In this document: one piece after another, positions 4,581-39,700 of the stretch | How the letters are laid out: each line of letters begins with the position of its first letter | How positions within the stretch are numbered: the first letter of the stretch is position 1 | NCBI RefSeq assembly: GCF_964199755.1 | Contig: NC_133906.1 | Span: 13,365,378 to 13,429,377 of the forward strand | Reading direction: 5' to 3' | DNA: 64,000 nucleotides | Source: Larus michahellis | Lineage: Eukaryota; Chordata; Aves; Charadriiformes; Laridae | Position numbers and translations under genes: made by a program | Notes under the pieces: model-generated | Database searches by the model: none | The model's input: only the letters and a program-made list of their open reading frames with translations | What the model was told of the DNA's origin: nothing

Positions 4581-4695
4581 AATGAAGAGAAGAGGAACCT
4601 TTCCCTGGGGGGCCATGTGGGCTTCGACAGTCTCCCCGATCAGCTGGTCAGCAAGTCTGTCACACAAGGCTTCAGCTTCAACATCCTCTGTGTGG
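4581..4695 (+). CDS. SEPT8: SEPT8 exon 2
   Basis: Acceptor tccctaccag, donor gtgagc. It starts in phase 0 ([15 protein letters not shown]) and ends one base into the P-loop Gly (CVG). It contains the [12 protein letters not shown] and GFSFNILCV strand typical of septin N-termini. Confidence 0.95.
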
Positions 4696-7600: not shown

Positions 7601-10600
7601 ACATGTGGGACTGCAGGGTTGAGGCTGTGGAAGAGGGACAAGCTGCTTTAAGGCTTCCAGGCGGACCAAAGTTCAGCTGCACAGTGAAATCTTGAAACCT
7701 TCATCCAGCGTCTTTTCTGCTGTGAAAAGATATTTTTTGGTCTGATGGCAAGTTGTCCCAGCAGGTCCGGAGCTATGTGCCTGTTTCTCTGCACTGAAAC
7801 AGGCCCCCAGATTCCCTCCTCACAGAGATCTCCACTTTCAAAAAAGGCAGGTCCCCGGAGACTTTAATGCCAAGATAAAGGAAAGAGAGAAAATGGTAGA
7901 GAAGCCTGTTAAAGTTGGAATCTCACAGAAAGGAGTGAGAGGAATCCTCATTGTCAGACTTCCCTGTCCCCTCCACAGCCCACCAAACACCCCTGGCTTC
8001 ACGCTGAGCTGCGGTGTTACCTGGAGCTGTCGCTGTGTTTGGGACAGCCAACAACTGACCAGATAGTCCTTGTCAGTAGGAGCAGCTGAGTTTTATTCCT
8101 TCTCATCTGAAGACACAAAAGACTGTACTAAAATTGTGCGCTCCCCAGCTTCTCTGGTGCAGAATCCCAAGCAAAGTCAGGGTACGTGGAAAGGAGAATA
8201 GCATGTTTTGCTGTGCTGTAAGATCCTCACTGGGGAGATGAGACCAAAGTGCTCTGCGTTAGCTTTGCATTAAGCGTGGGAGGCCTTCAAGAATGCAGTT
8301 ACATTTGTGACAATTACATGTCTGTCCACAAGCAGTTTGTAGTAACCTTTCACAGTATAATTTAGTTCTGCTCTGTAATTAATGTTCTTTGAAGTACTTG
8401 TGACAAATTCATGCTGCAGTGAGCTGATGATTTCTCCTTCCTAGGTGAGACCGGCATTGGGAAATCCACACTAATGAATACCCTCTTCAATACCACATTT
8501 GAGACGGAGGAAGCCAGTCACTATGAGAGCGCAGTTCGCTTGCGGCCACGGACCTACGACCTGCAGGAGAGCAACGTCCACCTGAAGCTAACAATTGTGG
8601 ACGCGGTTGGATTTGGGGATCAGATAAATAAAGATGAAAGGCAGGTCTCGTGCCATCTGCTTGGCATTTCTGGGCTGGCCTTTGATGCTTAGATGTGAGC
8701 TGCTTGCAGTGTTGCAGAGGCGGTGTCCATGTTTCTGTAACCGAGTAGCTCCCTGCAGTGGCTCTGGTTCTGGGGGCTGAGTGTAGAGGGAGTTGGGTGA
8801 GGACCAGAAAGAGAGGTCACAGGAGGTCTTTCCAGCAGGGAATGGTGTCCTCCAGGAGCATCAGCAGTTAACAAGCTGTCCTCAGTGCAGGGTTGGGAAT
8901 TATCTGTTCTGGCAATGACCAGTGTCTCTGGACCCGTCTCATTTAATTACACAGACATCTTGCTCAAGCCCCAGGTAAAGGCTTTCTGGGACTCCAAGGT
9001 CTCTCCTTGGTCATGTTGCATTGCTACAGCCAGATGGCTCGGCCCTGAGATCTGGGCAAAGTCTGTTCTGTGGAAGCAGTCATCTTTCCATGCTCTGCTG
9101 TCCTTAGGCTTTGCAGTGCAGCCTCAGGAGACTCCAGCAACCTTTGGATTATAAGGTCTGTGTGTAAATGCCACACTTTTCCTGTGGTAAGGCTAAATTG
9201 TTTGAGTCTTATAACTACTTTTTAAATGATAGCATGGTATGTGTAGGAGAACTCCTTAAGCCTTCACATTGTGTAATTTTGAGGTCCAGTATCTGGGTTG
9301 CTAATTGTATGGTTTTAGTTACAGGCCGATAGTTGAGTACATTGATACGCAGTTTGAAAACTATTTGCAAGAAGAGCTGAAAATCCGCCGATCTCTCTTC
9401 AACTATCATGACACGAGGATTCACGTCTGCCTGTACTTCATCACCCCAACCGGACACTCGCTCAAGTCCTTGGACCTGGTGACAATGAAGAAGTTGGATA
9501 GCAAGGTAAGGGGTTGGAGACCCTGGTCCCTCTTTCTGGAAGTGGTGATACTTCTATTTATATTGGTTGTCATGTGGAAGGTTTTGTTCCTTACATGTAA
9601 GTGCTGGAGTCCTTCTTGCACGATAGCTGACCGGTTTTTAGGACTCTGCTAGAACTTTGTCTGCCCTGATGGGTTGCTGAAGTCCTGTGCTTTTTTTCTC
9701 ACCGGCTTTCCTGAAAATGTCAGGTGAAAAACTTGTTTTCCAGCTAGCTGTGGGAAATCTAGAGTGTCCATCACTGTTTAGTTTATATTTATCAAAGCCA
9801 TCAACTGCATTTTTATTAGCTCTTCTTTACAGGTGTGCAGGTAAGGATGTGTTCCAGCTCCTGCAGTTGAAGTGTGGAATCTGCGGAGCCACCTCTGCTG
9901 TCCTGACCAGGGATGGAGGGGCTGAGAGCAACTAAAGCTGTAGGCGTCCTAAGGTGGTGGTCAGTAGGGAGGAGACAGGGGTTGAAGAGGAGCGTTGGCT
10001 GTGCATGCTGGCACACAGGGAGTATATGAGCCGTCACTGCTGGTAGTGCCGGATGATCTGAATAGCAGATCACAATGTCCTCTGAAAATGTAAATATGGT
10101 GAGAAGTTCTCAAGGTCATAGGGATCCTGAAAGTGGGTCATGAGAGGGTCTAGCTGGGGGTTGTTTCTTTGTGCATAAGCTATTCTGCCTTAGGGGGCAG
10201 TGGGTTACTTAACTGGTTACTGCTGGTATTCCTGTAGCTCGGAGGAGGTTTCTGACACACTTCTGGCTGTTCCAGCTGGCTTCCAGGGAACTGCAGGAGG
10301 CTTCAAAGGTCACTAGTGGCAGCAGTATCTCTTCTTTTCTTTGCAAGAATTTCCTGTCTTTCAGAGCAGTATTTTAGCAGCAAAGTGGTGGTTCCTTTCA
10401 GATGGCAGATGCTGCCCAGTTTACAGAGGGGGCAGGGAAGGTGGCTGGGACCCTGCAGTAGCTGGGGATCCCCTGGATTACATTTAGGGAATGGTCTCTT
10501 CTCTGTCTGTTGTCCACGTGCAGCTCTATCGGACTTTCCTGGCGGGTAGAGTTCCCCCTCGCAGAGTCCCTGCTGTTTGCCCTGGCCACCCGGGGCTGTT

Positions 10601-13600
10601 GGCCTGCTTTTCCTTGGCCCCGCTCCAGAGCAGGCGCTGGCTTCCCACTGCAGTGGGCTGTTTGTAACCGTGGTGGCTGTTACACTGACTTCATCAGGAA
10701 TCTGAAAACTTTCCCTTAATAAACTCTTGTCTCTTGGTGCTGTGCCAGCATTACAAGTTCCCAGAAATATGTTCGGAGGAAAGCTTCTGCACGATTCCCC
10801 TTGGTGCTGGTGGTCCCACAAAGCTTTTCTCTTCCTTTCCTTCTGCGTTCCCTACTTTTCACATCTCCCTGTGGCTGTCTTTAATGTGGTCCTTGGGTAG
10901 TACCAAAATAAATCCTTTGGACTTGTGCAGAGACGGGAACTTTGTGCGCACACGAGCTTTTTATACTTCTAAACTTCCACTTAAATAGTTGTCTCTGAAG
11001 TCATTTTATCCCTTTGCTCTCATCTCCCTTCTTACCACAGTCTGAGACCATCTTCGATTTCATCGTGTGGTGGCTTCACGCACGTGGAAATGAACAAGCG
11101 AGTAGAGACCGTTGATATTTTCTGGGTGTCAGGGGCTTGTGTTGCATTTCTGCATCAGTGTCATCCCAGGACATCAAGGTGCTTTCCAGGCCCTCCTTAA
11201 AGATTTGTATGTGACGATGCTGTGCACCTTTCCCAGTACACATGAACCATTCGTGCTTGGGGGCCAGCGTGTGTGCAGAGTGAAGTGGGGTGTCAGCAAA
11301 CCCCAGGCAGCGTTCTGTCTGCTCCAGACTGGTGACAGCGAGTGGCTGTCGCGGCTGAGCAGAGCGGTGACGTGCTCTGACTCACGTCTGCAGTCGTGTG
11401 AGCACACCTGAACCTGGCTTTCCTCTGGAAAAGCTTTACATGGCTGCTGGCTCCTGTTTTATGGTTGAGGAGTGGAGTCCATGGAGACAAAAGGTGTATC
11501 AGAGGCAATGCTTTGCTGCGTGCTCAGCTGCTGAGGCTAGTTTACCGAGGTTTCGGTAGGAACCAGGCTCCGTTGCACCTTTGCTTTAGCACACCAGTGA
11601 CATGGCATCAGGGGTTGGGCAGGCTTTTGAATCTGCGTGACAATTTCAGTGATGAATCTTGCTTTTAGTGTGAAGTTTACAAAATCCTTTCTGAGTAAAG
11701 TTGTTTTGTAAATAAAATCTTCCATTGTACTGTAACACAATATTTGTTTGGCTGAGCTCATGGGCAGCTGTTGTCTAGGGTATTTAATTACAGACAGAGA
11801 GCTAGAAGCATCTTCAGAAGTGGTTCTAGGTAGGTGAAATGTGGCTGGCAGGTGGGAAGCACATATGACCTGGCAAGGGTTAGCTCTCCATTGGATTTAA
11901 CCTGGGAAAAGGAGGGGACAAATAAATAAGATAAACAAAATTGCATCTGTATCAGATGAGAACAAGATTTATTGATTTAAAACACAGCCCTGCCCTGCAA
12001 AGTGATGGCACAACTGTGTGCTGGCATGGGCATCCTGGGGCTCCCTGGGTGCCGTCCCTGGATGGTTTCCAGTCAGCGTGTGCTGTTTACGAGCTGTGGC
12101 TAATTGCTTGCCCTTCGTGCACTGACACATCCTAGGCGGGTCACTGGCCAGTGGGGATGCTTCAGGCTGGTTTGTGCCTCTGCTGTTTGGTTTCCAAGGT
12201 GGGATTTGCCTTTTGGCTTCACTGGGACTTGCATTCAGGACCACTTTGGAGATGCAGAAGGATCCAGCTGTATTTTATGTGGTGAAAATGCATGTACCCT
12301 TGTTATATTAGCAAAATTATTTTCTACCAACTGACTTATTTTGGCTTGTTCTTTTAAGTTTTATTTTTGGAGATGAGAAATAACTCTGTGGTCAGAATGA
12401 CTTGAGAATGAGGTGCATTTTTTGTGTGTGCCTGTAAATTCACTGTCTTATTTGAAGCATAGACTTCCTCTGGTCATAATTTCAGCTCCAGCAAAGACTT
12501 CCAGCATGTGAACTGACAGACACTGCATAGACAGTGGGCCTTTGCATAGAAATGGATGTGTGGAAGGTGCTGCAGGAGTGCAGGATTAGACATGCACTTT
12601 GGTTTGGTAGCATCTCATATCTTGTTTGGTTTTTGTTTCCAAACTTTTCCATCCTTTCTCCTTATTGGAAAGGGATGAGCTCATTCTAGACTTAGGCAGC
12701 TTTTGGGTGCGCATGCTCAAAATCAGAGAAGGGAAAACAGGAAGATAATTAAATGGTGCTCCAGGTGTCACTTGTTAACTGTGGCATTCCAGCTCATGGT
12801 TTTCCAAGGCATGCATGAAATCAAAATAAAAATAGTAATAATTTAAAAAAATAAGGAACTCACAAGGGAAGAAGAGAGGAGGAGAGAGATACACTCAAAT
12901 GTCATTTCCAGGACTCCACAATATGGATGCTGGCTATTGATTACTGGAAATACGAGAACTTGTAAAATCCTTTTGGGTTGTAAACTTTGTGACTGAGTTG
13001 CCTTTTCAAAGCATGAGGAGCACATGGTTGGAGGGGACTTGAGTTAACCTCAGTTTGCACCTTGTTTGAGTACTGCTGGGGCCAGCAGCTGTGACCCCAG
13101 GGCCTGCCTTCTGCTGCTGGGAGAGCCGTGCCAAGCTCCAGGCTCTGTATCCCTGCCTTGCCGTAGGCAGGGCTGAGCTGGTGATTTTTGGAAGGAGAGG
13201 GGGAATTGCTTAGACCATCTGAAAATGGACTAAAATCGTCTCTTGTGCTGGTTTGTCAGTGTGCCTGGCTGGCTGGGGTGCGCGAAGCCCTGCAGACAGC
13301 AGCTCCCTGGCAGTGCCTTTCCCTGAGCAGGTGGTACGTGAGCCCTGAGCTGACCCTTTTCCTGTGGGAGATGGTGGATCCAAGCCTCCTCGCCTCTTAG
13401 CAGGTCAGCGAGGCACCCAGCTGTGGTCATGGCCCTTTTCACTTTTGTAATGAGGCCATCGGCCTGCTGACGAGTGGAGTCAGCAGCAGACCTTGTTCTG
13501 TGTGGGCTTGTGGCCCTTGGTAAAAGAGGTCGTATCAGTGGCTGAGAAAAAGAAGGAATTTATCCTCTCAGATAAATTTGCAATGAGCAAATTAAGACTA

Positions 13601-16600
13601 TTTTCTTTTGGAGCAAGTAAATGCTCTTTTATTTAGTGAGTGCTAAACCAGGGTGTGTGGGGGGTGAGGGTGGAAACAAGAACTGTGGAAAAAAGGCTTA
13701 GCTACAAAGAGAACTTGAGCTGGGAAACAAGGTTATTTATTTTAATGGGCACCCATTGGAGACCAAATGGCTGCTATGAATTTCTGCTCTGTAGGACAAA
13801 AAGCGTTGGCTGTTGGGAAATGTTCGATGGCAAATCAGACTTTCCCCTCATTTGTCTGAATTCTTGTGTTTTACTGCTCTGAATTTGGCCGCTGTTCAGA
13901 CAGACGAGTTCTGTTGTTGTTTGTTTAAGCAGGTTTGCAGTTTTGCACTTGGCTTTTCTGGTCACAGCAGCATTGTCTAATAGAGGTTCCTGTGACAGAT
14001 CCTGCCCCACTGTAGCTCTCCGAAGCACAGGGTCATAGCGCACCACATCCCTCCTGAAGGATGTGGGACGTGGCCCTCGTTTGCTGTAAGTACCGAGCAC
14101 AGGGGTGACCTCCCCACCCTGCGGGTGGCTTTGTGAAACCTGGGTTGATGAAGCTGTGCACTGTGGTGTGCGTGGTGTCTGCTGGTGTGAAACCAAAGCT
14201 GAACAGCAGCAGCATGAAAATAAATCTCCCGCCTGCTGTGTGGCACCCTGCACCTTTCCCAGCTGGTCCATGTAATCTGCACAGCACGCCTGAATTGTGA
14301 TCCTCACGGAGAGGCCCGGGGAGTCCTCGAAGGGATCCACAGCCGCTGTGAAAGTGTGTAAGGAGTCCCTGCTCCTTCTGCTTAAGCATGGGAAGGCTTC
14401 ACATCAGCTCGCTGCAGCGTTTCATCCTCGCACTTGTCTTATAAAACGGCTTGTCAGCACAGCCAGGAGTGGATAGGTGATAACTCGAGATGTGACAGTT
14501 ACGCTGTCTCTGCCTCCCTCGAAGTGTGTAACAAAATACATAGGCAAGAGCAGAGGCTTTGATCTGCTCGTTGTGTATTTATTGCAGGGTGTTTGTCTTC
14601 GGTTTATCTGGAAGTCTCATAGACAAATTAGTCCTGGAAAACGCTTCCCTCTAGTGTTCATCTGGGCTTGTGCTGCAGCTCACATGCAAAACGTAGCAGC
14701 TTTGTCGTTTTATGAAATGTAAAGTAGCCAGAGGGATAGGACCCGGGTCACCCCGCGGGCACCCACGCTCCCAACAGAGCTGCTTGCCCCACTGCTCACC
14801 TGGTTATTTTTCCTTCCTTCCTTCCTTCTGCTGTAGGTGAACATCATCCCGATCATTGCCAAAGCAGACACCATCTCCAAGAGCGAGTTGCACAAGTTCA
14901 AGATAAAGATAATGAGCGAGCTGGTCAGCAATGGCGTGCAGATCTATCAGTTCCCAACGGATGACGAAGCAGTCGCTGAGATCAACTCTGTGATGAATGT
15001 GAGTAATGCTGCCAGTGGCATTGATGCCAGAAGTTGTGACAAATTAAATTGCTGCACAAAAATGCATTTGAAGGGCAAGTTTCACTGGGATTGTCCAGAC
15101 GCTAAATCTGTTTGAAAGTTGAGCTGTGGATCTGACAGATGCTTAAGGCTATTACATACAGAATTAATTAAAATGTGGCTCTTGTTTAATCTGTGGGCTC
15201 TCTGGAGAAAGTCAGCTCAGCTCTAAATTTTTTTTTATCGAATTTTTGAAAAATACTTTCTTTGAAATTCATTCTGTCTGCTTTTAGGCTACTTTTCACT
15301 TGAGGAAGGATAAACTCTGAATAAAAATTTTACAGTTAAGATTTACATTAGCCTTCTGACTTCTGAACACCCAATTTAAAATAAAGAGGAAAAATTGTTA
15401 GACTCTATTTTGTCTTCTTTGAAATTCAAAGATCAAATTCAGACCTGGCTGAAGCATGTGCAAAACATTTTCAAGTTTCCTGCCTCCCAAATCAAGAGTG
15501 CAGCTATCGCAATAGAAACTGATGAATGTTAATTTTTTAAATAAAAAGTAGCTTTTTCATCAGAATGAACATTTTCCTGCATAGCTGTTTCTGATTACAT
15601 GCTTTGTCTTTTCTTTCACGCACACCTCTTTTTTTAAAAAAAAAAAAAAACAAACCACCAAGCCAAAACCAACCAACTTTGAATAACCAATTCATTTCTG
15701 GGTCAACTAGGTACGCGTTTTCACTATAATAGTGCTTTTTTTGTGGAATTCATGAAAACTTTGGAGGATGCACTCTTTTTAAAAATAATTGCAAGCTGCG
15801 TGCATCGGGGACAAAAACAAGAGCCACGCTTGCTTGATCCCGTCCCCGTGTCCCGTGTCCCCCTGTCTCTCCGCCCCAGAAAAATATTTTTTGGCCACCT
15901 CTTTACTGATTCCTCACTTCTGGATCCATGTTATCCTAAGTGCGAAGGATTTTGTCAACCTCGTCCCACTGAAGCACCTGTTCCATGGCTCCTCTCCTGC
16001 AGTGCTTGAGGACGGTCCCCTGCTTCCTTTCTGTGCCCGATGCTTTGCAGACTTGGCGAGCAGCGAGCACATGTTGTATCCTGCACATGTCCCCTCCAGT
16101 GCCCACACGCAAACTGCTGTGCCAAGCCCTGTTTACGGATGTCTTTGCTCGTGCTTTCTGCAAGGCAGGGAGCGCCCTGCTCTTGGCATGTGGAGGGACT
16201 GCAGCTGCAAGAACAACCTGACAAACGGATAGAGGGAGATCGGTATTGATCATGGTGTTCCTACAATATTTTCCTCATCTAGTTCAGTCCAGGCAGCATT
16301 GCTAGTAAGCTGTGATATGGCCCTATGCTGCTCTCTGTTGTAATATCCCAGTTCATAGTAGAAACTGGTCTGAGTATTGGAGATTGTCAGCTTCAGAGGA
16401 AGGACTTTTTGAAGTAGATCCTGTGTCTGGGTGAGGGGGATCCTAATGGTCAGGCTGATCTCTGAGGGGTTCACCCGTGCACTGAGTCGCTGGCCTTGGC
16501 TCTGTTTCAGGCTCATCTGCCCTTCGCTGTGGTCGGCAGCACAGAGGAGGTGAAGGTTGGGAACAAGCTGGTGAGAGCTCGGCAGTACCCGTGGGGAGTG

Positions 16601-19600
16601 GTGCAAGGTAAGGCGCTGTGAGCCAGGCACCCCCCACTCCCTTGTGTGTGCGCACACTGGCACCCTCTGCAGCTCTGCCCTCCTGCCAGCGCGCGTGCAT
16701 GAAGGTGCTAAACTGTGCAGAAATGTCTTGTGCAGCCTTTGTGGGTTGGCCAATCTTTCCTTTGAATTCCCATTCCTACTGGCAGGTTGTAATGGTCAGC
16801 AGGAATCCCTGCATGATTCCTGTGTTGTGCCCTGTGCGGGACGACAGGTAGAGGTCTTTGGGAGGGGAGTCTCTGGAGTGAATCTGTGTGTGCGTTTGTG
16901 CTCCCCCGCCATGTGTGCAGTTTGCTGACTTCCCCCTTTGCTTCCATCAGTTGAGAATGAAAGTCACTGTGACTTTGTGAAACTGCGGGAAATGCTGATT
17001 CGAGTCAACATGGAGGATCTTCGGGAGCAGACTCACACCCGCCACTACGAGCTGTACAGGAGGTGCAAACTGGAGGAGATGGGCTTTAAGGACACGGATC
17101 CAGACAGCCAGCCCTTCAGGTGAGCGGCCTACACATCTAGCATCAATTTAGGGCAATAGTTTGGTACTGACGCCCCCCAAAAAAGGTAGGTTTGTAGGTG
17201 GTATCCACGATGCTGGGCTGCAAAATACTAGCACTGGGTTTGAACTTTGCAGCTGACTTTGTTGGCATTCCCTTCCCTGCCTGTTTGTCTTTAAGCGTCA
17301 CAGAGAGGCGTGCATTTCCCCATCCCTAACTCATTGGTGTCCAAAGAGTCTGGATTTCGTTTGCTTTCTTCCCCAGCCTCCAAGAAACATACGAGACCAA
17401 AAGGAAAGAGTTCTTGGGTGAGCTCCAGAAGAAAGAGGAGGAAATGAGACAAATGTTTGTTAACAAAGTCAAGGAGACAGAGGCAGAGCTGAAGGAGAAG
17501 GAGAGAGAGGTGGGTGTGCCAAAAACCTGTGAGAGGAGCCTAAAATACAGCCAGCATAGGGTTTTGGTCTGGGCAACATATGAATCCTGGAAAGCACATG
17601 CAGCTCTTGAGCACACCTCACCAGCCAAAGCACAAACACACACACAACTTCCCCCACTCAGAGGAGGGGACACGGGGTAATGTTTTCAAAACAGCATCAC
17701 TGCTTTAGGTGCCTCAGGAACAACAGTCTTCCCCATCCTGTGTAGTGTGTAGGAGATTCATCCGCCGCTTGGTGAGTAAAGGGCAATGCGGGACGTTTTG
17801 GTGAGCATCAATGTCGGGTAGACTTCACCCCGGATGCTCACTGGATAGTGCATAAAGGGGGCAGCTGGGCTTAAGTCCCCCAGGTCAGTGCTGTGAGGCC
17901 ACGGGCAGCTGCTGTGACTGGGGAGGAAATGAATGGACCATCTTCAAAATTAGTGAGGAATGAAAGAGCCCGCAATGCCCACAGCCCCGTGGCAGGGCTG
18001 CAGACTGAGCCGAGATCCTCAGTGCGCTTATCCAGGGCTTATGCAGGGGCACTGGCTGCTGTACCCTGCTAGCTGGTCGGTGTCTGTAGAGTGGTGGGAT
18101 TCATGCGGGAGGTGTGACTTTGGCTCCGGACGGTCCTGCTGCATGTGATGCTCAGAGGATCTGTCTCCTACCAGCTGCATGAGAAATTTGAGCACTTAAA
18201 AAGGATACACCAGGAAGAGAAAAGGAAGGTGGAGGAGAAGAGGAGGGAGCTGGAGGAAGAGATGAACGCCTTCAACAGGCGAAAAGTAGCGGTGGAAACC
18301 TTGCAGTCCCAATCCTTGCAGGCTACCTCACAGCAGCCGCTGAAGAAGGACAAAGACAAGAAAAAGTAAGTGTCTCAACTTGAGTCTTTCTCCTCTGCCG
18401 CTGGGAAGCTGGGTGGCTGTTCAGACGCTTTAATGTCTGGTCAGTTACTTAGACAGCAAATGGAAAAGGGAATTTTGGAACCCTAATTCCTACTCGTCTG
18501 ACTCATTGCTTAAAGTAGAGAGAGACAGGGTCCTCCTGTGCTCGGGCACTGCCCTGTGGGAGTCCTGGTGGGTGCAGGTGGGAGGGATTCGCACTTTGGG
18601 GCCATTTCCTAAGGGCTGAGAGTCCTGTGGGGTTTGCCCTTGGCTCTGTGACGGCCAGCTCAAGTGACCCTGCGAGACGAGACATTTCCTCCTGGAGACA
18701 GCCGGGAAGGTGACTAGAAATAAACTGCATCTTCTCCCCAGCAGAGAGGAGTTGGGGACAAGTGTGACACGGTTGTAATGTCTTACAGATTAAGTCCCCC
18801 CTCATACACTACCTCACTGTGATCTCTGGGCTTGGGGCCCTCTTTGGAGGCTGCGCTTACTTTTTTTTTTAGAGGCCGAGCTGTAAAGAGGGAAACAGCA
18901 GCTTAGAGTGAAGATGCATTCGAAATTCATTAGAGCTCCATGCGAAATAGGGCTCCAAGACACAGTTCTGCTTACGAGAAAGCTCTTTTCCCCTAAAGGC
19001 AGAATTCTTATCTTAGCTTGCTGCAAGTTAATTGACATTGCTGAAGCCAGCAAGAACATGGAGCGAGGGCATGTAAATAATGCTCTTTCAGCTGCCTGGT
19101 TGTGTAATGATAGAGCAGGAATGGGGCAAAGAGGTTTAAAAAGAAAAGGTGGGGGGAAGCGATCCTGCTTCCATTCAAGCCAGTCTTCAAGGAACAGTGG
19201 CTAGGGGCTGAAGAGTCTGAACTGCACTCTGTCAAATCCGGAACAGGCTGGTGGCAATGCTTTCTGAGCCTTTTAGTGATGAAAAGAAAAAACGACCATC
19301 AAGAATAGCAACACCCGAGGCTGCTCTTGACAGCACAGTGTTCGGCTTCACGTTGCTGATGAGGTCTTGTGCTCTGTCATTTCTCTGCTGTGAACTGCAG
19401 CACTGGAGCAGCTCATGCTGCGTACTGACATGAGAGTAATTTGTGTCTTCCTTTGGAAGATAACAGTGCGTATTACTTCACCTGTTTCCTTGGAATGAAA
19501 AGTGTTGGTGTTAAAACAAAACCAAAGCACTCTCTCCCTGCAGACCTCTCAGCATGCTCTGGGCATGTCCCACCGCACGCATAGACTCCAGAACGGTTTG

Positions 19601-31600: not shown

Positions 31601-33412
31601 ATTGCACCTTCACGCTAGGATAACAATCACCTGAAAATGCTGGCCCTATTGTGTAAAACAAGAACAGAAACATAAAAACCTAAAGAAAACACTTATCTTA
31701 AAAGAATGTGTAAGGCTGATTTTAAGAAGTGCAGTAGAGGTTTAAACTGACCTTTGTAACTTATAAAAATGCTTTGCTATGGAGATTAGCAGTTAATAAA
31801 ATCTAATGTGGTGGTGGGGAATTAATTAAAGGCATTTTGTATTGTCTAGTCTGGTAAAACAGAATAAATTCAAAAACCCCTGAATGGCACGTGCTGGTTG
31901 GTGAGGGCCCAAGGCAACAGTGATTGTGGACAAGAAGCGATTTCCCACGGCTGTAGGAGCTGGGATTGGGTCTGTAATGGTGTAAGCAGGAAGGGGCACA
32001 GACCTCAGACCTCTGGGATTCCAGAGTAAGGCTCTAAGAAAAACTGCAGGGTTTGGTTCTCAGTCTTCTCACTGTGAATCCAAACCTTGGTTCCACCTGA
32101 GGACTGCTCTTACCGAGCCAGCAGCGGGAGCTCCCCCTTCCTCGGAAGCAGCTCTTCTTTACTCTCCCATGGGGCAAGTCAATTAGCTCTAATTAGAGAG
32201 CAATGGACTGAGCTGGATGAAAGGCTCAGTCTGTCGCCCTTCATCACAAATAAAGTTAACGCATTAAGTAAATTCTGAGGTGTTTGGTTCTCCCTGGTGC
32301 AGTTCATAGCCTCCTGCGTTGGACGGCTGCCAGCACATTAACTCTTGAGCCACACGCTCTTGGCGGTGGATGATTTCAGTGCTGTTTGTTAACCCCTAAG
32401 GAAAGATGCAGGGTTTTTGTAAGTTGATGATAAATTACTCTCTCTTCTGGCCACTGCTCCTGTATCTCTGTAATTAGAGGGAGGGCAGGGACAGGCTGCA
32501 CTGGATGCCTCCATAGATGCATATCGGCAATATGTGTGTTGGCCTTGGTGCAAAACGCTTAAGCAGGAGCTCCTGAACCTCCACAAAAAAGGTGGGCAAG
32601 CACTCCCTCTTCTCAGGAGGGGACAACAGTCCAGAGGGACGGCAGGAGGCTGGGTTATTCCACGCAAATTCAAGATCACAAAATGGGTCGAGGGTAAGCT
32701 GCCAGCCTGGGTGTTCGGCCTGACAGGTATGCTCTCTTAAAAGGTGTGTGTCTTATGAAACCAGAGAAAAGCTTTAAAAAAACCAAACCAACCAACCAAC
32801 AGAGCTTGCCTTTAATGTGTGTCATCAGAAGCCAAATTGATTGTATTTTAAGAGCAATGTAACTGTACTTGGAAGTTTTTGTAGTGTTCAGTGGGAGGCT
32901 GGGGACAGTGGGCAGGTTTTTAGGTGCTCCCGGACGCGCCACTGGGAGAGAATCTCGCCTTGCGCAGCAGGCAGGGGCTACCTGCGGCCGAGCAAGGGGG
33001 AAACCTGCCTTCCCTGCCAAAGGCAAGGCCCTCTCCCCGATCCCAGCCCTTAACTGCAGTTTTATTCCCTTTTGTTGGCACTAGCAAGGTCTGCAGCAAA
33101 GGCAGAACATGGACACGCGCTTCTCAGGCGGCTGCTGAAGTGCAATGTTGGTTGGAAATACACGTGCGCTGTATTAATTTATCGGTGTTCCGGCCTCAAG
33201 ATTTGTGACCAAAGGCCATTTTGATTCCTACCTGTGCTTTTTTTAGCAGATCAGTAATAACAGGAAACCATTCAGGAGTCAGCCTCTCCAGCTCCAAGGT
33301 GATGATCACCAAAACCAGTGTGGAGCCCTTAAACTGCACTAGTTGGTGGCACGCCATACAGTGCTGTAGCTGTTTGGTCAAGAACGCGACATGGCGGGAA
33401 GGATTCCTCTGA
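4581..33412 (+). CDS. SEPT8: Septin-8, gene span (exons 2 to last; exon 1 outside window)
   Basis: Septin of the SEPT6/8/10/11 group, a GTP-binding subunit of hetero-oligomeric septin filaments at membranes and cytoskeleton. Nine coding exons are visible: 4581-4695, 8445-8640, 9319-9505, 14837-14998, 16511-16607, 16951-17119, 17377-17509, 18175-18365 and 33247-33412, about 471 codons with all phases matching. Seen: P-loop [10 protein letters not shown]3 VDAVGFGD, G4 AKAD, septin-unique element around [13 protein letters not shown], then a charged coiled coil ([16 protein letters not shown]) ending in KKDKDKK. Family knowledge: this septin group lacks the catalytic switch-I Thr and stays GTP-bound. 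Two C-termini are predicted, a short one stopping at 18369 and a long one using the exon at 33247. The residues before LSLGGHVGF differ from what I recall of mammals, and the first roughly 10 codons lie upstream of the window. Introns are GT-AG except intron 3, which is GC-AG. It could be a closer SEPT6-group paralogue, but the tail WREGFL and the neighbours argue for SEPT8. Confidence 0.96.
4696..8444. other. SEPT8: SEPT8 intron 2
   Basis: 3.7 kb without exon or clear repeat. Several 90-130 codon ORFs on both strands look like chance frames. Confidence 0.7.
8445..8640 (+). CDS. SEPT8: SEPT8 exon 3 (P-loop and G3)
   Basis: Acceptor cttcctag. It encodes ETGIGKST, the switch region ([20 protein letters not shown]) and G3 [14 protein letters not shown]. 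It must end at 8640, where the intron starts with gc. The nearby GT at 8645 would shift the frame and put a stop in exon 4. Confidence 0.95.
8641..8644 (+). promoter_or_regulatory. SEPT8: Non-canonical GC 5' splice site of SEPT8 intron 3
   Basis: The exon/intron junction reads GATGAAAG|gcaggt. Only this position keeps frame with the exon at 9319 (AG|T = Ser, then YRPIV). The GT at 8645 would add four bases and produce a stop within a few codons. The flanking AAG and following aggt fit the minor GC-AG class. Confidence 0.8.
9319..9505 (+). CDS. SEPT8: SEPT8 exon 4
   Basis: Acceptor ggttttag, donor gtaagg. The split Ser codon (AG|T) is followed by [20 protein letters not shown], then the [19 protein letters not shown] strand and [12 protein letters not shown]. 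Length is 187 bases, phase 2 in and phase 0 out. Confidence 0.95.
9506..14836. other. SEPT8: SEPT8 intron 4
   Basis: 5.3 kb. Long minus-strand frames near 10303-10821 and 13774-14340 show no recognisable domain. A (TTCC)n stretch precedes the exon 5 acceptor at about 14811-14828. Confidence 0.65.
14837..14998 (+). CDS. SEPT8: SEPT8 exon 5 (G4 AKAD)
   Basis: Acceptor tctgctgtag, donor gtgagt. It encodes [14 protein letters not shown], the base-specificity G4 motif, then [17 protein letters not shown] and [16 protein letters not shown]. Length is 162 bases, in frame at both ends. Confidence 0.95.
14999..16510. other. SEPT8: SEPT8 intron 5, with an unexplained minus-strand open stretch
   Basis: The first 700 bases are AT-rich. 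Between 16250 and about 16500 the minus strand is open and protein-like (see findings). The ORF containing it runs on across exon 6 to 16753, where it is a shadow of the septin frame. Confidence 0.5.
16511..16607 (+). CDS. SEPT8: SEPT8 exon 6
   Basis: Acceptor tctgtttcag, donor gtaagg. It encodes [19 protein letters not shown] and [13 protein letters not shown], the start of the septin-unique element. Length is 97 bases, ending in phase 1. Confidence 0.95.
16951..17119 (+). CDS. SEPT8: SEPT8 exon 7
   Basis: Acceptor cttccatcag, donor gtgagc. It encodes [40 protein letters not shown] and [16 protein letters not shown], completing the GTPase domain. It ends on AG of a split Ser codon. Confidence 0.95.
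17377..17509 (+). CDS. SEPT8: SEPT8 exon 8 (coiled-coil start)
   Basis: Acceptor cttccccag, donor gtgggt. It encodes [40 protein letters not shown] and EKERE, the first heptads of the C-terminal coiled coil. Confidence 0.95.
17510..18174. other. SEPT8: SEPT8 intron 8
   Basis: 665 bases, no feature seen apart from a short CA-rich run near 17634-17646. Confidence 0.7.
18175..18365 (+). CDS. SEPT8: SEPT8 exon 9 (coiled coil; alternative stop in the donor)
   Basis: Acceptor tcctaccag, donor gtaagt. It encodes [20 protein letters not shown] through [10 protein letters not shown]. Splicing to 33247 turns the last two bases (AA) plus C into Asn. Without splicing the reading ends at once as Lys-stop, the TAA at 18367-18369 being part of the donor itself. 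This gives the short isoform. Confidence 0.93.
20830..20870 (+). terminator. SEPT8: Candidate poly(A) site for the short SEPT8 isoform
   Basis: AATAAA at 20830-20835 is followed within 20-35 bases by a GT-rich run (tgggtggggggtggtgtttt). It is 2.5 kb past the short-isoform stop at 18369. Other AATAAA hexamers occur at 20097, 20234, 21859 and 24307. Which one is used cannot be told from sequence. Confidence 0.4.
21823..21842 (+). repeat. (TA)n microsatellite
   Basis: About ten uninterrupted TA dinucleotides in an AT-rich part of the long SEPT8 intron. Confidence 0.9.
25525..25566 (+). repeat. Perfect 12-bp inverted repeat plus adjacent palindrome
   Basis: GAATTTTTCCAC (25525-25536), a 4-base loop AGGA, then GTGGAAAAATTC (25541-25552) form a perfect stem. 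Two bases later comes the 12-base palindrome ATATCATGATAT (25555-25566), and more gatat repeats run to 25596. Confidence 0.75.
29289..29462 (+). repeat. 31-bp minisatellite, five full units plus a partial
   Basis: The unit begins ctgggctggagagagacggg and continues tgcctcggggt. Five consecutive copies differ by single C/T or G/A changes, and a shortened sixth follows. Because 31 is not a multiple of three, long open frames appear on both strands with a 31-residue period; these are not genes. It lies in the long SEPT8 intron. Confidence 0.92.
32264..32395 (-). CDS. CCNI2: CCNI2 terminal coding exon
   Basis: Acceptor catctttccttag joins the previous exon in phase 0. It reads [40 protein letters not shown] and EFT, with TAA at 32264-32266. 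The [13 protein letters not shown] stretch parallels LIHCRELVAHHL of cyclin I, which identifies it as the true last exon. The tail after it is divergent and short. Possible poly(A) signals on this strand (TTTATT on plus) lie at 31471-31476 and 31395-31400. Confidence 0.75.
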   Translation of the reverse strand, partial: GLTNSTEIIHRQERVAQELMCWQPSNAGGYELHQGEPNTSEFT

Positions 33413-36400
33413 GGCAGCCCATGTAGTAGATGGGGCCCGTTGGACATCACCATGGCATGGAACTGGAGAGAAGATAAAGTATATATATATTTAAAAAAAA
33501 AAAAAAAAGCAGAGGTCAGTGAACTTTGTATGTTTTCATATGTTATCAACCAGAATAGAGACTAATTTCATCTCGTATCAGGAACACTAAAGGGTTCCTG
33601 CTCCCTTTTTTTTTTTTTTTTTTTTTTGTGTTCTGTGTTTGTACTTGCCAACCACTGAACTGGTTTTTTTGAGCTTATAATGAATGTACAAGGTCTGTGT
33701 TTCCTAACGATTTCTGAAGTTTCTACGTTATCCAGATTGCTATCCAGGAGATTCAGTTCAGGCCAGCAGATACGAGTAGAGTAAAACCAATAATAATGAC
33801 TGCGCTCTGAATTTGCTGAGGAAACAAGCACCTAAGAGAAGCAGTTTTCACAATCAGCAGCCTAAGGTGGCTTAATATTTGCACATAACTTTAAAAAAGG
33901 GATCCAGGACGTGTTCGTATCACATGATTTTTGCCTTACTAGCACATGATCGTTTCTTGAAGACAAAGTTTAATTGTTTCTATCAAATGTTTAGTAACTG
34001 CAGCGTGAACCAAGTGCCAGATTGGGGTAGTCTCATTGCCTAAAACAAGGGGGAATAATTAGTGGGATGAAAAGTAAAATGGTTTAAGAAAAAACCTGTG
34101 TGTGAAATGTAGCAAAACTCTGACAGCTTTCTATGTACAGTATTACTAGAATGGAAATAGTTAGAAATATTTTTGCAGTGTGTATTTAAAAAAATAAAAA
34201 TGGCGTATAGTTGTGCATTATGAGAATCTTTTTAACGTCTGTTTTAGTTGTCCTTTAAAGATGAAAGTAATTTTTTTGAGAAAAATGAAAGGTTTTAAAT
34301 ATTAGAAAATTTTAAAAAGAAATTTTAAAAAAAATCACTGTAACATTCTTTAAAAGACTTGCAGATCGCTAAGAACAGGTAGTTTGCAAAGCATCTTGGG
34401 GAAGGATGTGTGGGGGTGTGTGTGTGTGCATCTGTGTTTTCTAGTCTTATTTGATAATGAGCTGTTTCTTTAAAGAAAAAAAATCAGCAAAACTTAGTGC
34501 TTACAATGTTTAAGAAATCCATTGGTGTTGCTGTGTAAAAATCCCAGTGAAGCTTATCTAGTGTAATTCTTTCCATTCTCAAGATCTCAGCTGGAGAGCG
34601 TTTACAGCCACTCTGCACTGCGAGCATCTTCACCGATGGTATTACCTGTAAAAAAAAAAAAATAAAAAAAATAAAGAAGCCAACATCCTGCACTGTGTCG
34701 TGTGTGTTTCTCTGCATAGCGAAGGGATCTGACGAGTTTATACACATCCCAAAGTGGTGAGCGGAATGCTGGTTCAGGAGGCCGCTTTCCTGGATAACTC
34801 CCATCCTAAATGGAGACTGACAGGCGCTCGCCACAGGGCAGCTGGCTACGAAGCCAGCCCGCGGCAGGAATGATGCTGTTCACCTCCCTAGCACCGTGAA
34901 GCTCCTCAACGCTGCATCAGTGACACGCGTTGCCCGCTGCCAGTCTCATCAGTCTCATGAGTTTTGCTCCTCTGCCAAGGAGGCGGCTTCCTATCGGTCT
35001 GTTTTATGGGGCCTTCTGTGGTCGTCTTGTTTCCTGCGGTCATGGACTCAACTTCTCATTTTTAGCTGAGGGGAAAAGAAGAATAAGCTCCGTGTGATGC
35101 ATCCTAAGAACGGCGATGAAGAGCATTGCACCGCAGCAGGGGGTGTTCGACGAGACCTGCGTGTCAGACCCCACCTCCTCGGTTTCCTGTTCTGTTTCAG
35201 AACAGAATGAAGGCAAGTGGAGAAATGCAATCTGAAATACTTTTGGCTCATGTTTGTGGATGTCTGAAGGAGTCTATCAGTGGTTGCTGATTTTACATGC
35301 TCACCTTGAGGTGCAGAACTGAGTCGTTTCCTCACCAGGTTCAGAAACCAGTTTTGACTCTAAGCAAACTCTTCTATTTTAAGCTTCCTCTGAAGAACCT
35401 CTGTCTGTCTTGCCTACCTTACTCTCCCAGGACCTGTAACAAGGGACTACGGCACTCTGACGTTGTGCGCACAAAACTCTGCCTGTGCATCTTGACTGTC
35501 CCCCGTCCCCCCGACCCCAACTAAGCTTTACTGTGAGCCAAGGATTCTGGATAGAGGAGAGACGTCTAAGGGCAGGAGGAGGGAAATGCATCCATTACAT
35601 AAGCAAACACAAGTCCTTCATCCATAAAGGTCACAATTCATGTAAACAACGATGAAACAGGACTGAAAATGTTACTGTCGCCCCTTATGGACCACTCAGG
35701 GTAAACAAGTTAACGTTTCCTCATGCCCAAGTTGTTGAAAGGCTTGGAACAACTTGAGCACAAGAGGTGAATTTATTGTGTTTAAAATTAAACACAGAGA
35801 CCTCATCGTCTTCATTGGTTTTTGCTGCAAGGACGAGGCAGGAAATTGCTATGCACTGAAGATATTTTAATTGGGCCTGAAGGGAGAAGAAGAAAACACT
35901 GAGTAAGGAAGATAAGATAACCGTCTTGGGGAAAAATAATTGTCATTCTGCGACAGATGCAGAAGTTTCAAGCTTTCATTTAAGTTACAGTTGCTTCTGA
36001 ATTAGTTTAGCTGCAGAAAGATTCATTTGAAGCTGGAAATAGAGCACAGAAATCCAAAGTGAAACAAAATAAATCCTCTTGGTGCAATTTTTATTCATGT
36101 ATCCCACAATTTTTAGACTATGCAATGCCACAGTATTTACAATGCAATGTTATTCCTTTTCTCAGATGAAATATTAATTAATATGCGTTTGCCAAATGGT
36201 AGTATGGATCTAATTGAGAGCTGCAAGGTGCAGTTCAACTCATAACTTTGCTGTTGCTTCAACGGCAGAAAATGTTAGCCCCGTGGTTTGGTTAAAAACA
36301 GTAGTTTCAAAACTAAAATATTAAAGTGATAATGCAAATGTTTTCTGTTTAGCAGAGGCAAGCAGATAATGAGTTCTTTGTACTTATCACAGCATTTGGA

Positions 36401-36766
36401 CTACAACTCGCACAAACACTTTTTCCGAGGACTGTAAATCAGTAGAACCTCATCAGACACTGGAGTTCACATACATGGATATGTGCTTAAAAACCTTCCC
36501 CAGCAAAGACCCTGTCTGCTCCCTAAATCTGCTGCCAAACATAGTACCTGCTTTGTGTATAAACTGATTACATTTCCCTTACATCCCCAATCAGTAATCT
36601 AGCCAGGAAAAAGCTGACAGAGGTTCTCTACCTTCACTGGTGCACGTAACCGGTTAAGGATGCTGGTAGCTAAGGCAAATGTTTCAGGGTAAAAATGGAA
36701 CCGAGAGCTTATTTCTGCAACCCAGAGAACTGCTTTCTTGTAACACGACAGAGAGGTATCTGTGCC
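32264..36766 (-). CDS. CCNI2: Cyclin-I2-like protein, gene span (last five coding exons; 5' exon not found)
   Basis: Atypical cyclin of the cyclin I family. Five minus-strand exons join in phase 0 throughout: 36766-36632, 35876-35802, 34645-34505, 33462-33232 and 32395-32264, giving 237 residues. Seen in order: cyclin box ([32 protein letters not shown]), then [20 protein letters not shown], then [20 protein letters not shown] and [10 protein letters not shown], then the second half ([40 protein letters not shown]), then [13 protein letters not shown] and stop. Remembered cyclin I has matching segments ([34 protein letters not shown]). CCNI2 is preferred over CCNI because the human neighbours SEPT8 and KIF3A flank it here. 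The N-terminal exon is missing from my reading, so the protein is 5' incomplete. Cyclin I-type proteins have no settled cell-cycle role. Confidence 0.88.
33232..33462 (-). CDS. CCNI2: CCNI2 penultimate exon, overlapping SEPT8 on the opposite strand
   Basis: Acceptor cttctctccag, donor gtagga. It is 77 codons, phase 0: [60 protein letters not shown] and [17 protein letters not shown]. All 166 bases of the SEPT8 terminal coding exon fall inside it. If the donor were ignored the reading would end after [11 protein letters not shown]. Confidence 0.92.
33247..33412 (+). CDS. SEPT8: SEPT8 terminal coding exon of the long isoform, antisense to CCNI2
   Basis: Acceptor gtgctttttttag joins exon 9 in phase to read KKDKDKKN|RSVITGN, then [37 protein letters not shown] and WREGFL with TGA at 33410-33412. 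From memory this closely matches the human long-isoform tail ([35 protein letters not shown]). The QCCSC cluster is a plausible palmitoylation site. Family knowledge, not checked: an alternative SEPT8 tail has been described as palmitoylated and filopodia-inducing. The exon lies completely inside the minus-strand CCNI2 exon 33232-33462. Confidence 0.93.
33601..33627 (+). repeat. Poly-T tract in CCNI2 intron
   Basis: About 21 T residues on plus (A on minus), downstream of the SEPT8 stop. This may be a remnant of a retroposed A-tail on the minus strand, or simple slippage. Confidence 0.7.
34193..34675 (+). terminator. SEPT8: Candidate poly(A) signals for the long SEPT8 isoform
   Basis: AATAAA lies at 34193-34198, 34661-34666 and 34670-34675 on the plus strand, 0.8-1.3 kb past the stop at 33412. 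The last two sit in the A-rich complement of the pyrimidine tract of the CCNI2 exon starting at 34645. Inference only. Confidence 0.35.
34505..34645 (-). CDS. CCNI2: CCNI2 exon (cyclin box, helices 4-5)
   Basis: Acceptor tttttttacag, donor gtaagc. It encodes [40 protein letters not shown] and PMDFLNI, with the conserved Glu of EILRME. It is 47 codons, phase 0. Confidence 0.92.
35802..35876 (-). CDS. CCNI2: CCNI2 exon (cyclin box, helix 3)
   Basis: Acceptor cttctcccttcag, donor gtctct. It encodes [20 protein letters not shown] and NEDDE, the cyclin box segment carrying the family Lys (AAKT). It is 25 codons, phase 0. Confidence 0.9.
36632..36766 (-). CDS. CCNI2: CCNI2 exon (start of cyclin box)
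   Basis: On the minus strand, acceptor tcttcccctcag and donor gtagag. It encodes [40 protein letters not shown] and RAPVK. The FYPETFALA and ILNR motifs are the hallmark of cyclin I helices 1-2. It is 45 codons, phase 0 at both ends. Confidence 0.9.
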
Positions 36767-39700
36767 CTGAGGGGAAGAAAAAGTTAGAATACACTTAGCG
36801 CTTTGATGATTTTGTTAACATATCTCCAAAGGAAGACTCAAATCATTCTAAGTAAGTGCTCTAATTAACATTTCAGATGTCTGGAGGCTTGAAATGGAGA
36901 AAGTTGTGGGCTGTGTCTGCAGAGCGAGGGCAAGGGTGAATTTCGGAGCAGTTTAAAGCACTCATTGGTGTTGCCCACCCAGTCAGGCTCCAGTGGGATG
37001 CTGAATGTACTGGGCTGCACTGGAGTTCTGAATGGGGAAGCACCCAGCCCTCCCCTTGCACAGCACGTGTGAGCCACCAAACCGAGCTCTTACAAATGAA
37101 GTGCTGAGTACGTTCATTATTACGTGAAGCCTTCGAGGCACCATGTGTTTCATTCCCATGGCCTCCACAGGGAGAGAGAAACTGGAGCTGGGAGCAGGTT
37201 TTGATTTACTCTTCAAGAGTTCTTTTTTAACAGCCCTTGAATTTGCTTAGCGTTTGGACAACAGAGGCAGGTTTTTGACTCCCCCAAGGCACAATGTACT
37301 CAGTTTTTTCTTTCTGATATTTTATTTGAAGATGCATTCAGGTGAGAGGAAGGACTTGACTGTGGCTGCCGTTACAATGTCATGCGTGACCCATGGCACG
37401 TATTTGGACATTATTGCTGACCTGAAAGGGCCAAGTAGCTGCACAGAACAGACAACATTTACCACCAGTTCATTTAATATTACTCATTACATTATCCCTG
37501 TCACTATTTTGCTTTATTTGGTAGTAAAAATACTTGGTAAAAAATAGCATTTCAACACTATTGCAAAAAAGAGACCAGGCTGGCAGGGCACTTCTGTGCA
37601 TTTCTTCCATGGATCCGATGCACTTCACAGGAGCAGCTGAGCGTAACTGTCCCCATTGTGCGCAGAAGCCAGTAAGTGTTGCAGCTTCCTAAGGTGGCAG
37701 ATAGACTCACCTCAGCAGCTGGGAATGGGACTGCATTTCTGTTAGGCTTCAGTGAATTCCCTCTTCTCCCATATGAATAGATGGGACTCAAAGATGGTGT
37801 TGAGCACAATTAGCTCTAACGTAACATCTTTATGGCTTTATCATCGTCTGCTCTTTCCTGCTCCACTCGATTTCCCAAAACTACTTGAGTCAAAAAAAAA
37901 ATGCAAAGCACCTGGTTTACAAGGGGCATTAATAAGATGTAAGATGGGACAAATACAGGCCCTCCTCCGCCTCCATTCCTTAAGCTTAGTCCACACGGGA
38001 TGATTTTTGCATTCAGGTGGATTAGATGGCAGGACCAGAGCTGCATCTGCAGAGGCCCTTAGGCACTCCCAAAGAGGACAGGGGAGAATATCTTCAGGGT
38101 GAGATTCTGCTAAACTGACACTTTCCAAATCCTAGCCCCTCTGGCTAAGGCATTTTCCAGGAAGAAGGTGAGTCTTGAGCTCTCTGGAGGCCCAGGGCAC
38201 GTGGTGGCAAGGCTTTGAGGCAGTTTCCCTGATGGGAGCTGCTGTCAAAACCAAAAGAAGAATTACAAAGCAACATCCCAGCTCCTTGTGCTGAGTCTGA
38301 TTTCCTCTCGTGATGCTTTTCCAACGCTGAGAACTAAGTTGGGAGGAGCCATACGACTTGTTTGTTTGCAGACAGAGCAATCCTGTCATCGATTTTCCCC
38401 AGGGGAAGCCCATGATGAAAGCAAACGTCAGATGGCTAAACAACAGTGCAGTCAAGCTTTTTTCCTCCCAGGCTGTGGAAAGGCTTGCTTGAGTAACCTT
38501 GGGTCAAGCAGTGTGTATTACTCCCCTTACCTTGTTTCACACATTCAGCTCTCATTTGGTGTCTCTTTAACAGCAGAAAAAAGATGTTACTAGATATAAC
38601 ATTTCTGCTTTTCTTTGTAGAGTGCTGGATGTGGGTTTCCTCACTGGTGATTTTAGGAAGCTCACACCATTATCTCTACAGGTCCATTAAAAACCCCAAA
38701 GTGACATGAATCCTCTGGAAACTGTTCGACTTTTCTAAAGCTGAAACTGTGTTGTGTGTGTTTCACTGAAAGCAGGACTTTGGGGTGATCTCGTGGGGAA
38801 TGGCTCCACTGGATCATCAGGTCACTGCTCTCCCAGTCCAAACCGCTTGGCATTTCCCAGGTGAACATTGTCTCAGCCCACGTGGGTCTGTCTCACCTGC
38901 ACAGAGATCATTGTGTCAGGCAAAGCCGTACGTTCCTGGGATGGGGATGAAGTTTTGCCACGGTGCAAAACATGGTAACCTTCAGCATAGCCCCCAGCTC
39001 CACCCCGTCCCCTTTTACTGGCATCAGTTATTGCCTCAACAAATGCACTGCCCCATCTGGACACTTGCCATGTCCAAAATACCCTTTTGCTGCATCCACA
39101 CCACCCCCAACACCTGTCAGGAGCTGTTTTCCTGCCAGACACTGGGAAGGATCCTTGATTTTGTGTTTCATGGAGCATATGCACCCCTGTCCCCTCCCAG
39201 GGCTGGGCTGCTCTGCCAGCATTTGTGTTTCACCCCACGTTTGCTTCCAACCAGAGTCTCTCCACCTCTTGCAACCGCTCTCCTCAGCTTTACCCTTGGC
39301 TCCTTGTTCCCTTTGTTTTTCTCATGCAGCATTTTCTACTGGGGAGCCAGTTCCAATATATTATGTTAAACCTTTTCTTGTTCCTCAACTTTGTCTGCCC
39401 ACACACGACTCCCTGTTCTCTCACTAGACTTCTGGGTTATACATTTTTTGGTGCTAATTTACTCTATTAGTCTACAAATCTTTGGATACAGTACAGCTCT
39501 GAGTAATACTGTGGCAATGTATAAATAGCAAAGTGACTGTATTTGCTGAACACCTTGTCCTTAAGCTTCCTGACTCACCTGGAGACACTCAGCTGGGTGT
39601 GAGGGAATGGCCCCATCCTGTCATTACCGGCATGTTCCCAGCCCTGTGATACACCAGAGAGTGTGGTGGGGGAGATCAGAAACACTTCTGAAAGCTCCAC

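Follow-up and report, generated by a model that had tools for sequence, protein, structure and literature searches.

Within a 64,000-nucleotide stretch of the Larus michahellis genome (hereafter the window, on contig C15 of the 1.4-Gb genome), the septin gene SEPT8 occupies the plus strand and the cyclin gene CCNI2 the minus strand, and the subject of this report is the segment in which their coding sequences coincide. Our reading, in which we have considerable confidence, is that the two genes share an ancient antisense coding overlap, with the alternative last exon of SEPT8 (the tail exon) placed within exon 5 of CCNI2. Coordinates of all gene parts are collected in Table 1.

An earlier note, made from the letters of the window, had assigned plus-strand positions 33247–33412 to the tail of a long SEPT8 isoform, in phase with exon 9 and ending in WREGFL. 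This assignment holds: upon splicing and translation, exons 2–9 fuse in frame with the segment to give a 471-aa septin with exactly that C-terminus (the assembled model comprises exons 2–9 plus the tail exon), the splice sites are in place and homologous tails are found elsewhere. The tail exon supplies 54 codons plus the final base of an Asn codon interrupted by the intron, and a 14.9-kb intron leads to it from the exon 9 donor (AA/GTAAGT, 18365/18366) to an acceptor at 33247 that reads CTTTTTTTAG/CAG. The assembled protein matches the Pfam Septin domain PF00735 at 328.8 bits, and its closest solved GTPase-domain construct is septin-8 (592 bits, with septin-11 at 524 and septin-6 at 505).

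On the opposite strand, the proposed 77-codon CCNI2 exon in correct phase (minus strand, 33462–33232) was borne out by its open codons, by its acceptor (CTCTCCAG) and donor (GTAGGA) and by its agreement with public proteins. CCNI2 exons 2–5 are all open with AG/GT borders, the Cyclin_N domain PF00134 is recognized at 65.5 bits and the top protein matches are cyclin-I2 records. The antisense coding overlap of about 55 codons stands as well, both of its frames matching public proteins of other species. The further statement that the SEPT8 terminal exon lies inside the CCNI2 exon is correct for the coding part, which sits entirely within exon 5, but the 3′ untranslated region presumably continues past the stop and beyond the cyclin exon. 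The 231-bp segment has itself as its sole match in its own genome, and the overlap pieces alone matched nothing in Pfam or PDB.

The two frames are arranged such that wobble faces wobble. Plus-strand codons start at positions equal to 2 modulo 3 and the third positions of both frames equal 1 modulo 3, so that the first and second positions of SEPT8 and CCNI2 codons lie opposite each other's second and first. Because third positions are shared, keeping one protein conserved goes far toward conserving its counterpart. An adjacent pair of septin cysteines (33362–33367) is antisense to Gln-His of CCNI2, and the pyrimidine tract and tandem acceptor of the tail exon (GCTTTTTTTAGCAG) are antisense to the codons for Leu-Leu-Lys-Lys-Ala. 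The corresponding cyclin exon end, LLKKAQ, is present in 101 of the 120 cyclin proteins among the matches listed.

Co-encoding and apparent constraint of the two frames

The SEPT8 tail was recovered in 42 protein cluster representatives (20 in a first protein search and 22 new in a second) from birds, Gavialis, echidna, placental mammals, a caecilian, frogs, teleosts and the skate Amblyraja. For comparison we used 31 tails, namely 30 of the 42 representatives and the window. The 12 excluded representatives were P0009 and P0010 (species and tail of P0008), P0014 and P0015 (each short by one residue at the acceptor), P0150 (with one residue more), P0151 and P0152 (unannotated open reading frames with the tail internal), P0154 and P0156 (fox), P0161 (short), P0162 (different last residues) and P0160 from Xenopus laevis (three residues deleted; handled separately). 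Across the 31 tails, 18 of 54 positions are invariant, including two K, E, WW, the CC pair and the last W. The earlier proposal that the overlap has been kept since the bird–mammal ancestor is supported as regards conservation outside birds, and the overlap looks older still, given that the tail is found in amphibians, teleosts and a skate and that one frog, Leptobrachium, is exactly co-encodable.

A species was counted as co-encodable when a single DNA segment, in the register of the window, could specify both its SEPT8 tail and its CCNI2 exon 5. The cyclin search listed 120 of 511 matches, of which 108 gap-free entries and the window entered the cross test. No conflict was found for Baryphthengus, Pardalotus, Pterocles, Corvus moneduloides, Leptobrachium or the window, such that five of the six same-species pairs (four birds and one frog) are exactly co-encodable. 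For the first three birds, both records list equally long contigs, and the two genes are thus probably on the same contig. The Leptobrachium tail is compatible with its own CCNI2 alone, the best of the other 108 entries giving 5 conflicts. Controls were far from this level, with at least 44 conflicts upon shifting the register and at least 40 in 300 shuffles of each CCNI2. The skate tail, tried across species, showed 6 conflicts with its best partner, a bamboo-shark CCNI2. Physical overlap would probably extend to fish and mammals.

Shared wobble geometry leads one to expect that an antisense peptide will be partly conserved along with a conserved cyclin, and we accordingly used a null model in which the CCNI2 protein is fixed and synonymous codons are randomized. 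The antisense frame stays open in 13–27% of recodings of the window's CCNI2 exon; mere chance can hence account for openness alone, and was rejected because it does not account for co-encoding elsewhere or for wobble retention. Identity between bird and frog tails (37–41 of 54) exceeds the null mean (28–31 of 54), and between 0 and 9 trials out of 4000 attained it. In trials for skate, Hyla, a cyprinid and a clupeid, which used the CCNI2 of relatives as proxies and a third-position GC content (GC3) of 0.58, the skate's observed identity to the window was attained 12 times in 4000 trials and that of Hyla in none of 4000.

In thirteen septin codons, the residue hinges on a third base at a site that is fourfold degenerate in the window's CCNI2. 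When skate, cyprinid, frog and baboon were compared with the window at these sites, the base class needed by SEPT8 was kept in 37 cases and changed in 5, with 10 uninformative. This retention (37/42) corresponds to P = 2e-7 under independence and a one-half chance, an optimistic value since the lineages share branches; by lineage, P is 0.03 for skate, 0.09 for cyprinid, 0.0005 for frog and 0.006 for baboon. Across 30 tails, the base class at these sites is the same in 316 instances, changed in 17 and other in 57. In the reverse direction, CCNI2 residues at bases silent for SEPT8 are retained in the 120 listed proteins, many of them from birds (E in 120/120, L in 119, M in 118, I in 117 and the rest down to 104). 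Both frames appear constrained, as far as these protein-level proxies indicate.

Several observations weigh against this reading. In the sixth same-species pair, Xenopus laevis septin-8-B (P0160) and CCNI2.L (P0084), 8 of 51 scored positions conflict. X. laevis is tetraploid, and the misfit may reflect different subgenome copies. The cyprinid tail is weakly bird-like (81 of 4000 null trials reach the observed identity), and the clupeid tail falls within the null (808 of 4000 trials, not significant). Same-species pairs cover birds and frogs and include none from skate, teleosts or mammals, and the tail searches return tail-bearing records only, so that lineages without the tail go unseen. Conservation by exon is mixed: relative to exon 4, the overlap shows higher conservation in amphibians, non-avian reptiles and, by a small margin, fish, and lower conservation in "other birds" and parrots. 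This measure was consequently not used as proof; in birds, the overlap is not singled out by it. Finally, the start codon, exon 1 and C-terminus of CCNI2 do not add up to a complete coding gene in this genome.

As a separate observation on the frog, the X. laevis septin-8-B tail lacks three residues, one of them a cysteine otherwise invariant in the 31 tails, and this copy may be a homeolog that has lost its partner cyclin.

State of CCNI2 in Larus michahellis

The earlier note took both members of the overlap to be real coding exons, and for this species the cyclin side of that claim is not supported as it stood. Most complete bird records have a CCNI2 exon 1 that begins with MKCPG or a similar start and runs through KVPVFQNLTLK or similar into exon 2. 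Here, ACC (38205–38203) stands at the site of the ATG in other birds, an in-frame TAG occurs at 38112–38110, and AT (38091–38090) occupies the site at which a GT donor would be expected to follow the conserved end of the exon, although this ancestral GT was not observed directly. At the other end of the gene, the last exon can be aligned over about 24 residues and thereafter has a different ending. (The last exon was first placed at VQELLL..., which was used in the cyclin query, and comparison with other birds moved it to the position in Table 1.) Given these exon 1 lesions and the C-terminal truncation, CCNI2 may be a gene that is shortened or on its way to being lost in this bird. The two-protein reading is thus well supported for the vertebrate locus and doubtful in this genome.

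The strongest rival takes this further and holds that SEPT8 alone is functional here, CCNI2 being a recent pseudogene whose exon 5 survives as carrier of the SEPT8 tail; we consider this close to an even proposition. Beyond the lesions themselves, it is favored by the razorbill (Alca torda) CCNI2 record, labeled LOW QUALITY PROTEIN, which has the same changed start and altered end, by the lack of a second, intact CCNI2 copy among 14 matches in this genome, and by the distribution of residue differences from Alca (exon 2 has 5 in 44 residues and exon 6 has 5 in 40, whereas the overlap has 0 in 55). However, exons 3–4 are equally free of differences from Alca (0 of 72) and nearly so from Glareola (2 of 72), implying that the damage is recent or that a shortened product persists. 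The match to Alca and Glareola also points to a gull-like shorebird. Furthermore, exons 2–5 retain open frames and splice sites, an alternative first exon is possible, and the CCNI2 record of Cariama likewise has no ATG. Under the overlap reading, SEPT8 may now preserve exon 5 where CCNI2 is damaged.

Four passerine CCNI2 records (P0051, P0079, P0091 and P0136) look irregular in exons 1–2 and are gap-free in the overlap segment; three are labeled LOW QUALITY PROTEIN, and P0136 is short. From sequence comparison, CCNI2 decay may have occurred in more than one bird lineage.

Origin of the overlap and known parallels

The paralog CCNI provides a natural control. On another contig (C9), CCNI (plus strand) and a SEPT6-group septin (minus strand), presumably SEPT11, are convergent in the same layout as CCNI2 and SEPT8, and the equivalent CCNI exon has the same phase, with 48 of 77 residues identical to CCNI2 exon 5. 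Unlike the SEPT8 tail, the antisense frame of CCNI contains two stops and has CS in place of CC, with 26 of 54 residues resembling the tail; the stretch equivalent to the SEPT8 acceptor region reads GCCTTCTGGAGCAG and has no T run. The open tail is therefore no automatic product of cyclin sequence. Opposite the second cysteine, Gln is found in 120 of 120 listed CCNI2-type proteins and Leu in this genome's CCNI. A whole-genome search with the long SEPT8 protein listed tail matches in the window and in the broken copy opposite CCNI, and no others.

The same layout admits the alternative that the tail is older than the genome duplications of vertebrates and disappeared at CCNI/SEPT11, instead of arising at CCNI2/SEPT8. 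This fits the convergent arrangement on C9 and an antisense frame that is still 26/54 tail-like with just two stops, yet such a resemblance is expected from cyclin conservation alone and the comparisons were limited to jawed vertebrates; we regard it as rather unlikely. That the tail is a by-product, with CCNI2 alone selected and coinciding wobble making a non-functional frame look conserved, is highly improbable, for although geometry by itself yields 28–31 of 54 bird–frog matches, leaves the frame open in about one-sixth of trials and suffices for the clupeid tail, it is opposed by the 37/42 wobble retention, by frog and skate identities above the null, by the closed CCNI frame, by persistence of the tail in this lineage despite a damaged CCNI2 and by a mouse exon that is spliced, palmitoylated and active (PMC6092797).

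CCNI2 and SEPT8 are convergent neighbors, and for their antisense coding overlap we propose that the alternative last exon of SEPT8, with its acceptor, frame and stop, was most likely overprinted on a cyclin sequence that was there first, at a time before skates and bony vertebrates diverged. The long SEPT8 isoform would thereby gain a C-terminal tail whose cysteine pair, by analogy with mouse, could be palmitoylated and tie the protein to membranes, and third positions appear to be held additionally for SEPT8. A bolder version, which we put forward tentatively and rate below an even chance, is that this is perhaps the oldest antisense coding–coding overlap of nuclear vertebrate genes, in which shared codons have bound part of a cyclin to the membrane anchor of a septin since before the skate/bony-vertebrate split; CCNI2 residues that differ from CCNI (e.g., the Gln opposite the second Cys) would owe their retention, in part at least, to the septin, and the cyclin reading of gull-like birds would be a fossil that the septin preserves.

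In mouse, Sept8 exon 10b (isoform X1) is an alternative last exon following exon 9 and promoted by NOVA; palmitoylation occurs on its two adjacent cysteines, the sole predicted sites, and dendrites branch more under the influence of this isoform (PMC6092797). We equate exon 10b with the window's tail because rodent SEPT8 ends in a homologous tail with one CC pair; the baboon tail is likewise homologous. Palmitoylation and dendrite effects were tested in mouse (PMC6092797), whereas the bird tail is known from sequence; its role in this bird is likely the same membrane anchoring, by analogy. The text of the mouse study mentions neither Ccni2 nor an opposite-strand gene (PMC6092797). A second parallel, the best studied that we encountered, is TRalpha2/Rev-erbalpha, in which an alternative last exon also lies over the 3′ part of a convergent opposite-strand gene; that overlap arose before the eutherian–marsupial split, is absent in platypus and, by that account, is confined to therian mammals (PMC4569393), whereas the SEPT8 tail extends to amphibians, teleosts and skate.

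The rarity claimed for such overlaps in vertebrates was supported in part. In a set of 13,484 orthologous pairs, coding regions overlap in 51 pairs in human and in 28 in mouse (PMC2335118), conserved exon–exon overlaps amount to 1 for human–fugu and 5 for human–zebrafish (PMC2151771), and overlaps with coding sequence are under-represented (PMC2330155); surveys portray coding overlap of genes as being selected against in animals (PMC2330155, PMC2151771). Against extreme rarity stand 282 human–mouse conserved pairs, of which 108 in human and 82 in mouse overlap in their coding coordinates (PMC2330155), and 634 human exon–exon overlaps, of which 417 involve coding sequence (PMC2151771). Among the titles listed for the open-access literature, supplementary tables aside, we found no paper describing the SEPT8–CCNI2 overlap; papers that name both genes are, by title, association or methylation studies. 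We view the overlap as a further case of recognized antisense coding overlaps that stands out by its apparent age and by a splice acceptor whose bases also encode protein in the antisense direction. A functional motif and a cyclin segment on opposite strands, in a range that spans frogs and birds and probably reaches to skates and mammals, permit direct tests of mutual constraint, with lineages of decaying cyclin as natural experiments. In practice, a variant or an edit within CCNI2 exon 5 can alter SEPT8, and unstranded expression data are ambiguous there.

Feature coordinates and SEPT8 splicing

Table 1. Positions of SEPT8 and CCNI2 features in the window
Feature	Position	Strand	Evidence
SEPT8 exons 2–9, overall	4581..18365	+	splicing and translation
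SEPT8 exons 2–5	4581-4695, 8445-8640, 9319-9505, 14837-14998	+	
SEPT8 exons 6–9	16511-16607, 16951-17119, 17377-17509, 18175-18365	+	
Pyrimidine tract and tandem TAGCAG acceptor of SEPT8 tail exon	33233..33249	+	sequence
Coding portion of the alternative last exon of SEPT8, stop included	33247..33412	+	in-frame join to exon 9; homologous tails in 42 protein records
Possible poly(A) signal, first AATAAA downstream of SEPT8 stop	34193..34198	+	pattern only
CCNI2 exon 1 remnant with border	38090..38205	-	comparison with other birds
CCNI2 exon 2	36632..36766	-	open frame, splice sites, comparison with other birds
CCNI2 exon 3	35802..35876	-	open frame, splice sites, comparison with other birds
CCNI2 exon 4	34505..34645	-	open frame, splice sites, comparison with other birds
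CCNI2 exon 5, 77 codons, phase 0	33232..33462	-	open frame, splice sites, homology
CCNI2 last exon (exon 6), shortened relative to most other listed birds	32264..32395	-	comparison with other birds

The SEPT8 acceptor is tandem (TAGCAG, 33244–33249), and tails elsewhere begin KKN-RS, KK-KS or KN-S, the first two forms both being present among two fox records. The SEPT8 record of Gavialis (P0006) has an additional segment between exon 9 and the tail, which suggests a further alternative exon. SEPT8 exon 3 ends in a GC donor (AG/GCAGGT, 8641–8642), and several public bird records (e.g., P0001, P0007 and P0017) carry an extra RQV at this junction, as if the GC-AG intron had been missed by annotation. 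Within the intron preceding the tail exon lies a minisatellite (29289–29456) with 5.4 copies of a 31-bp unit.

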